Below are positions 1,462 through 2,200 of a stretch of 64,000 bases of DNA, one piece after another. The translations under genes were made by a program, and so were the position numbers. Under the pieces are notes generated by a model. The model had not been told where the DNA came from, made no database searches, and saw only the letters and a list, made by a program, of their open reading frames with translations. Numbering within the stretch: the first letter of the stretch is position 1; every line of letters begins with the position of its first letter. The stretch comes from Alphaproteobacteria bacterium (GTDB taxonomy: Bacteria; Pseudomonadota; Alphaproteobacteria; Sphingomonadales; Kordiimonadaceae): positions 1-64,000 of the forward strand of contig JABXIS010000054.1 of the NCBI GenBank assembly GCA_013372975.1, in the 5' to 3' direction.

Positions 1462-2013
1462 CTAGTGGTGATCATGCCCACAGTGTGGGTCGGCGCAACC
1501 ATGACTGTGCATGCCCTTGAGGTATTTCTGCATTTTCTTGAGAAGACGGTCGCGCTGCATCTTTGACAGATGATCGAGATAGGTCTTTCCTTCCAAGTAA
1601 TCCATCTCATGCTGGATCACCGTGGCCAGCCATCCATCTGCGGCTATTTCCTGTTTTACGCCCATCTCGTCTTCGAACCGCAGTTTAATCGCATCAGGCC
1701 GTTTGATGTCCGCGGAAATGCCGGGAAAACTGAGAGATGCTTCCTCGTTGGTGACAAGTTTATCAGATGACCAGATAACTTCCGGGTTGATACATATCAT
1801 GGGCTCAAGATTGCCTTCCGGTTGCACATCAACCACGATGATACGCAATGCTTTCCCGATCATGTTGGCGGCGATGCCCATACCACGGTGGGCATACATG
1901 GTTTCAAGCATGTCCGCTGTCAGTTGGCGGATACCATCATCAATATTGCTGACCGGTGCGGATCTTTGTCGAAGGACCGGGTTGGGTGCTGTGATGAGTT
2001 CGAGTAATGCCAT
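1462..2013 (-). CDS. Peptide deformylase-like protein lacking the metal-binding residues
   Basis: The fold is clearly peptide deformylase (183 residues; normal length about 165-180), but all three signature motifs are damaged. Motif 1 (GxGxAAxQ) reads GMGIAANM, so the catalytic Gln is Met. Motif 2 (EGCLS) reads EASLS, so the metal-ligand Cys is Ser. Motif 3 (HExDH) reads HEMDY, keeping the first His and Glu but replacing the second His ligand with Tyr. The codons for these changes were checked in the raw sequence. From family knowledge, such a protein should not bind the catalytic Fe/Zn in the usual way or deformylate nascent peptides. It ends in a Cys/His-rich tail (GCADPHCGHDHH) that could bind metal separately. 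The frame is intact and AGAGGT precedes the ATG, so it is an expressed pseudoenzyme rather than a decayed gene. Confidence 0.88.
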   Translation of the reverse strand: MALLELITAPNPVLRQRSAPVSNIDDGIRQLTADMLETMYAHRGMGIAANMIGKALRIIVVDVQPEGNLEPMICINPEVIWSSDKLVTNEEASLSFPGISADIKRPDAIKLRFEDEMGVKQEIAADGWLATVIQHEMDYLEGKTYLDHLSKMQRDRLLKKMQKYLKGMHSHGCADPHCGHDHH

Positions 2014-2200
2014 GGGATCTACCTCTGGAATGAATTTGAATTTGTGCGATACGCTGAAATGGCGGGATTGGAAAGAGAGAATTCGAATTGAATACCATCG
2101 GCTGGAAAAATTCGAGCTGATTTATTTTTGATTAGGGTTTTGACTGTAGGGTGCGCTGTTTCAGGCACGTTGTGAACAGATATTGGTTTTTGAGGTAATT

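Follow-up and report, generated by a model that had tools for sequence, protein, structure and literature searches.

What does a bacterium gain from a protein that has the fold of peptide deformylase (PDF) but other residues at the key places of the active site? The question is raised by a gene at 1462..2013 on the minus strand of the window (the whole stretch of 64,000 nucleotides of DNA analyzed here, from a member of the Kordiimonadaceae), for which a product of 183 aa was recognized by PF01327 match, AlphaFold2 model and structure match, and which is called pseudo-PDF below. The open reading frame begins with ATG, and a Shine-Dalgarno sequence, AGAGGT, was read directly 7 nt upstream of it (2021..2026, minus strand), so the intact frame and good ribosome site of the original prediction were both found again. 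The gene is convergent with a gene for an OmpA-like lipoprotein (730-1389) and divergent from a PAS-like gene (2183-2743), rpsI lies at 51-530 of the window, and no promoter or terminator element was detected by a scan of 1300-2300. In Kordiimonas the pseudo-PDF is a single gene with a stable place near rpsI; across the orders the neighbors vary, and no conserved operon was found which ties the stand-alone pseudo-PDF to def, fmt or map.

The window protein is a member of the peptide deformylase superfamily by profile as well as by fold. PF01327 matched residues 5-154 with 163.4 bits (E 3.8e-48, cut-off 22.8), and the AlphaFold2 model, built from 42 relatives, has a pLDDT of 91.9 and was matched by Foldseek to the E. 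coli Fe-PDF 1xen with a TM-score of 0.96 (normalized by target) and an rmsd of 1.1 A. Identity to solved proteobacterial PDFs is ~37-43%. The fold and the C-terminal helix are those of Type 1B PDF (E. coli Def, PF01327), whereas the Gln, Cys and second His of that enzyme are Met, Ser and Tyr in the pseudo-PDF, and many pseudo-PDFs add a Cys/His tail. The score against TIGR00079, the general equivalog model of NCBI, is 139.2 bits and passes the cut-off of 103.95, hence automatic annotation would name this protein as an active enzyme.

All three motifs of the active site are altered, as had been claimed from the sequence of this locus alone. Motif I, GMGIAANMIG (1855..1884, minus strand), has Met51 (1861-1863) in place of the catalytic Gln (E. 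coli Gln50); Motif II, EASLS (1729..1743, minus strand), has Ser93 for the metal-ligand Cys and Ala92 for Gly; Motif III, QHEMDYLEG (1588..1614, minus strand), has Tyr139 for the second metal-ligand His. The metal of PDF is held by a Cys and two His (PMC5591237). Of the marks of an active PDF, the Gln, the Cys of EGCLS and the second His of HExxH are missing here and the Glu of HExxH is present; the first His (His135) and this Glu136 are retained and are invariant in the stand-alone clade. Among thinned members, position 51 is Met in 68/68 of the pseudo clade and Gln in 53/53 canonical PDFs, position 93 is Ser in 68/68 and Cys in 53/53, and Tyr139 is found in all 67 of the 67 readable pseudo members. 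The columns invariant where readable over the 68 members are Gly46, Met51, Glu91, Ser93, Arg105, Gln134, His135, Glu136, Tyr139 and Gly142, and fixation of Phe/Tyr96, Pro10 and Gly98 exceeds that in the canonical family. The altered pocket is thus constrained as strictly as a live active site, and it is very probable that the pseudo-PDF has no deformylase activity.

The genome of the window is served by another deformylase, since a second, canonical def directly adjoins fmt there (own pair at L001), and so the reading in which this protein would be the lone deformylase fails. Within the family of the window a pseudo-PDF was found in 25/30 genomes (some of those without it are incomplete), at about 46-62% identity to the window protein, and each of the 25 also has a second PDF match at the canonical level; a canonical PDF was likewise seen in seven named pseudo-PDF genomes that were checked. 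A scan of named genomes brought relatives from Kordiimonas, Pseudokordiimonas, Sneathiella, Aestuariispira, Emcibacter, Rickettsia and Candidatus Megaira. The Met/Ser/Tyr triple is common to 78 non-fused relatives from Kordiimonadales, Sneathiella, Emcibacter and Rickettsia/Megaira, with the Tyr unread in one; the named-genome scan was done by peptide patterns, one of them containing the Tyr, so that Tyr was partly selected and Met and Ser were unselected, and pattern-free searches of whole genomes (L003-L029, L113-L119) gave the same triple. The collection of 180 unique PDF domains from genomes holds 86 with Gln/Cys/His, 81 with Met/Ser/Tyr and HE, one further with the Tyr codon unread, and two, both fused members, with Met/Ser/Tyr and HQ instead of HE; no intermediate that mixes Gln/Cys/His with Met/Ser/Tyr was found among them.

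In the measurable close species pairs the dN/dS of the pseudo-PDF is 0.035-0.16, and in most of these pairs the canonical gene has a lower ratio; one pair, with saturated dS, yielded no ratio, and some of the pairs take in a few codons from ahead of the start codon. The original prediction of a conserved non-catalytic protein of the deformylase fold is supported by the fixed triple, the canonical def in the same genomes, the purifying selection and the intact fold and frame, all of which point to a probable non-enzyme under constraint.

A first indication of where such a protein may work comes from its basic C-terminal helix (residues 151-170; 1504..1563, minus strand), which is seen in the model, in the charge and in the conservation. 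In E. coli, PDF binds L22 by its C-terminal helix, at a site for which methionine aminopeptidase is a competitor (PMC8712518), and the pseudo-PDF shares a basic helix at the equivalent position with this ribosome-bound enzyme. The net charge is +6 over residues 151-166 of the window protein; stand-alone pseudo-PDFs average +6.4 (sd 0.9, minimum +4, n=77) and canonical PDFs +5.5 (sd 2.9, n=79), that is, the helix is more uniformly basic in the pseudo clade than in the canonical PDFs. Lys153, Arg154, Lys160 and Lys163 also have a higher conservation rank in the pseudo clade. By analogy with E. coli, the pseudo-PDF probably binds the ribosome.

The second indication is from natural fusions. In six genomes of one gut-Rickettsiales family (G346/L097, G347/L105, G372, G373, G382 and G383, of 61 genomes of the family searched; L097 and L105 are rumen/gut Rickettsiales MAGs) a fused ORF of 333-353 aa carries an N-terminal pseudo-PDF followed by a canonical PDF, and the fusion is the sole PF01327 place in each genome. 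The pseudo half has Met, E[AG]S and H[EQ]xDY, with the Glu also lost (HQxDY) in two of the genomes, and the canonical half has Gln, EGCLS and HExDH. The helix of the fused pseudo half is practically uncharged (mean +0.3, n=6) and that of the fused canonical half has +5.3, so a separate anchor seems to be needed only when the pseudo-PDF is untethered to a true PDF; the loss of charge is what would be expected if the stand-alone helix brings the pseudo-PDF to the workplace of the true PDF. The AlphaFold model of the fusion (pLDDT 54.9, pTM 0.40) is too poor for any contact between the halves to be read from it.

The origin of the fused halves was followed in a motif-masked tree of 57 rows, in which the stand-alone pseudo-PDFs form one group (SH-aLRT 99). 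The pseudo halves of the fusions fall together with the canonical halves of the fusions and gut relatives of these (SH-aLRT 100 for all of them jointly). A topology that unites every Met/Ser/Tyr protein in one clade is not rejected by the AU test (p 0.37). From these sequences two histories are possible: the fused pseudo half was homogenized or drawn there by base composition, or the triple arose twice. If the fusion perhaps goes back to a duplication of its own and reached the triple by convergence, it is a weaker guide to the stand-alone family; the same separate origin would mean that Met/Ser/Tyr evolved twice, and that these residues are functional and not a mere loss.

The reading which we prefer, and to which we give about an even chance, is that the pseudo-PDF is a dead PDF paralogue, old in Alphaproteobacteria, which acts at the ribosomal tunnel exit and serves the true deformylase there as a non-enzymatic partner or regulator. 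The basic helix would anchor it to the ribosome close to L22/uL22, in the manner of E. coli PDF, at a place where it would sit beside the true PDF and methionine aminopeptidase or alternate with them; the conserved groove of the pseudo-active site could hold the N-terminal Met/fMet segment of a chain or a stretch of a partner, and may thereby tune how or when nascent chains undergo deformylation. In the fusion, the tether would substitute for the protein's own ribosome anchor. Against this reading count the variable neighborhood of the stand-alone gene, which has no conserved operon with def, fmt or map, the place of the fused pseudo halves in the tree and the broken copies of the gene in some Rickettsia. 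More tentatively, and with less confidence, it may be a dedicated non-catalytic PDF subunit, present as a true-PDF/pseudo-PDF pair in many alphaproteobacteria and as a single polypeptide in gut Rickettsiales. The original prediction had listed formyl-Met peptides, ribosomes or a true deformylase as what such a protein could bind; the true deformylase has gained direct support from the six fusions and the ribosome from the basic helix, and formyl-Met peptides are a possible ligand.

An unlikely but not negligible alternative gives the formyl-Met peptides the whole role. The pseudo-PDF would then act by itself, its dead pocket capturing nascent N-termini that begin with formyl-Met or Met and keeping them, for good or for a time, from PDF, MetAP or turnover by N-degrons, while the true PDF would not be contacted directly. 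The invariant residues of groove and pocket and the retained basic helix would suit such a binder, as would the change of Cys129, on the S1' side, to a hydrophobic Val. Fusion to the sole canonical PDF is not predicted by it, however, and the loss of the catalytic Gln and the metal ligands takes away what normally contacts the formyl group; moreover, the position of E. coli Leu125 is aromatic (Phe/Trp/Tyr) in most members, which may narrow the Met pocket.

It is improbable that the protein is an active hydrolase with an unusual center, in which His135, Tyr139 and perhaps Ser93 would bind a metal, with Glu136 as the base and fMet or some other amide as the substrate. No stand-alone member departs from the His and Glu of HExxH, altered motifs do not always mean inactivity (PMC12690207), and two phage proteins (L257, L258) share HExxY, one of them along with Gln and Cys, so that a Tyr may be tolerated at this place. 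Against this stand the loss of Gln and Cys besides the second His, the loss of the Glu as well (HQxDY) in two fused members with the same triple, and the presence of a canonical PDF wherever it was checked.

Similarly improbable is a metal store or metallochaperone at the ribosome site for PDF and methionine aminopeptidase, in which metal would be loaded by the Cys/His tail and handed over at the tunnel exit by the PDF-like body. This tail, HSHGCADPHCGHDHH (1465..1509, minus strand), is a putative transition-metal binding segment and is mostly disordered in the model, with pLDDT <50 at residues 172-175 and 177-183. A C/H-rich tail was found in 44/78 pseudo-PDFs vs 1/86 canonical PDFs, and has two types in the clade, CxDPxCxHxH, as in the window protein, and H[VI]HGPxCxH. 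Among 61 relatives the second type was found on the pseudo-PDF in five genomes, on trigger factor in two genomes and in a single case on a secreted protein. Its carriers over the whole class are, as we presume from their sequences, proteins like UreE, CobW and ZnuC, trigger factor and a mixture of others. This company would favor metal handling; on UreE, CobW (COG0523) and ZnuC the tail sits on dedicated Ni/Zn-handling proteins, in contrast to the pseudo-PDF, where it sits on a ribosome-type factor, like trigger factor. However, only about half of the clade carries the tail, with Sneathiella, Emcibacter and all six fusions among those that have none, and the pocket triple is never lost; the tail therefore cannot be the core function and was discarded as such. 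From the sequences it is plausible that it belongs to a widespread type of transition-metal tail and that, where present, it works as a lineage-variable accessory metal-binding tether.

A redundant duplicate in decay, or an error of sequencing or assembly, can practically be dismissed, and for the family as a whole it is refuted by conservation: the same triple in about 80 genomes, which by itself rules out error, the low dN/dS and the intact frames and fold outweigh the fact that in some Rickettsia (L095, L109, L111) the gene is broken into pieces, from which it follows that the pseudo-PDF is dispensable in that lineage.

With respect to known systems, the inactive accessory PDFs known in S. 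aureus and S. pneumoniae and the 'Type 3' PDFs (Margolis 2000, 2001, Giglione 2004, Grzela 2017, all as cited in PMC12690207 and PMC5591237) resemble the pseudo-PDF as altered-motif paralogues beside a working PDF; by its motifs the window protein is likened to Type 3, as its motif substitutions also stand beside a working PDF. Type 3 is a mixed group with varied substitutions, whereas in the alphaproteobacterial pseudo clade one triple is fixed, purifying selection is strong and one lineage has the fusion to the true PDF. A 2025 survey saw the classic motifs in their exact form in no more than 61.9% of bacterial PDFs, and noted that many accessory PDFs depart from them (PMC12690207). No published description of the clade, the fixed triple or the fusions was found in the literature that was covered, from which most subscription journals were missing.

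Accessory PDFs with altered motifs are thus common and unexplained, and here they are represented by one large and sharply defined family with fixed substitutions and strong selection. The natural fusions name a partner, which makes the role of a dead deformylase testable in a culturable marine bacterium. The enzyme name put by automatic annotation on probable non-enzymes also matters for the counting of PDF copies as antibiotic targets.

Other PDF lineages with altered motifs were met during the survey. The third def copy of some Rhodobacteraceae (L093, L099-L102), placed in the gene row def - def - def-like - fmt, is likely an inactive PDF too, with EASPN and QHQIDH; unlike the pseudo-PDF, it retains Gln and both His and is without the Cys and the catalytic Glu, and in the motif-masked tree it is a separate, very divergent lineage.

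PDF-like proteins were also seen on two phage contigs of IMG/VR (L257:2917-3459 and L258:2917-3393), beside gp46/gp47-like genes and with HEMDY for HExxH; L257 retains Gln and Cys, and L258 retains Gln and has ETSLT. As both retain Gln they are not members of the clade; from their motifs they are possibly intermediates, or PDFs with Tyr as ligand. A viral origin or spread of the clade was considered and rejected, these two being the only phage relatives and both having Gln.

Among trigger factors, those of L228, L229 and L239 carry HVHGPxC(G/N)H near the C-terminus or as an internal insert; pseudo-PDFs of other relatives bear this motif too. In the gut Rickettsiales family, L214, L216, L217 and L218 encode PDFs that are short (about 145-155 aa) and show E(G/A)N(L/V)S and HE(I/M)EQ, which resemble the PRK09218 type and form a third altered-motif PDF lineage. 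Tandem PDFs are found in L210 and L211 (G368, G371), where the second copy has an N-terminal hydrophobic stretch, and in L210 this second copy has HEVDLL instead of HExDHL.
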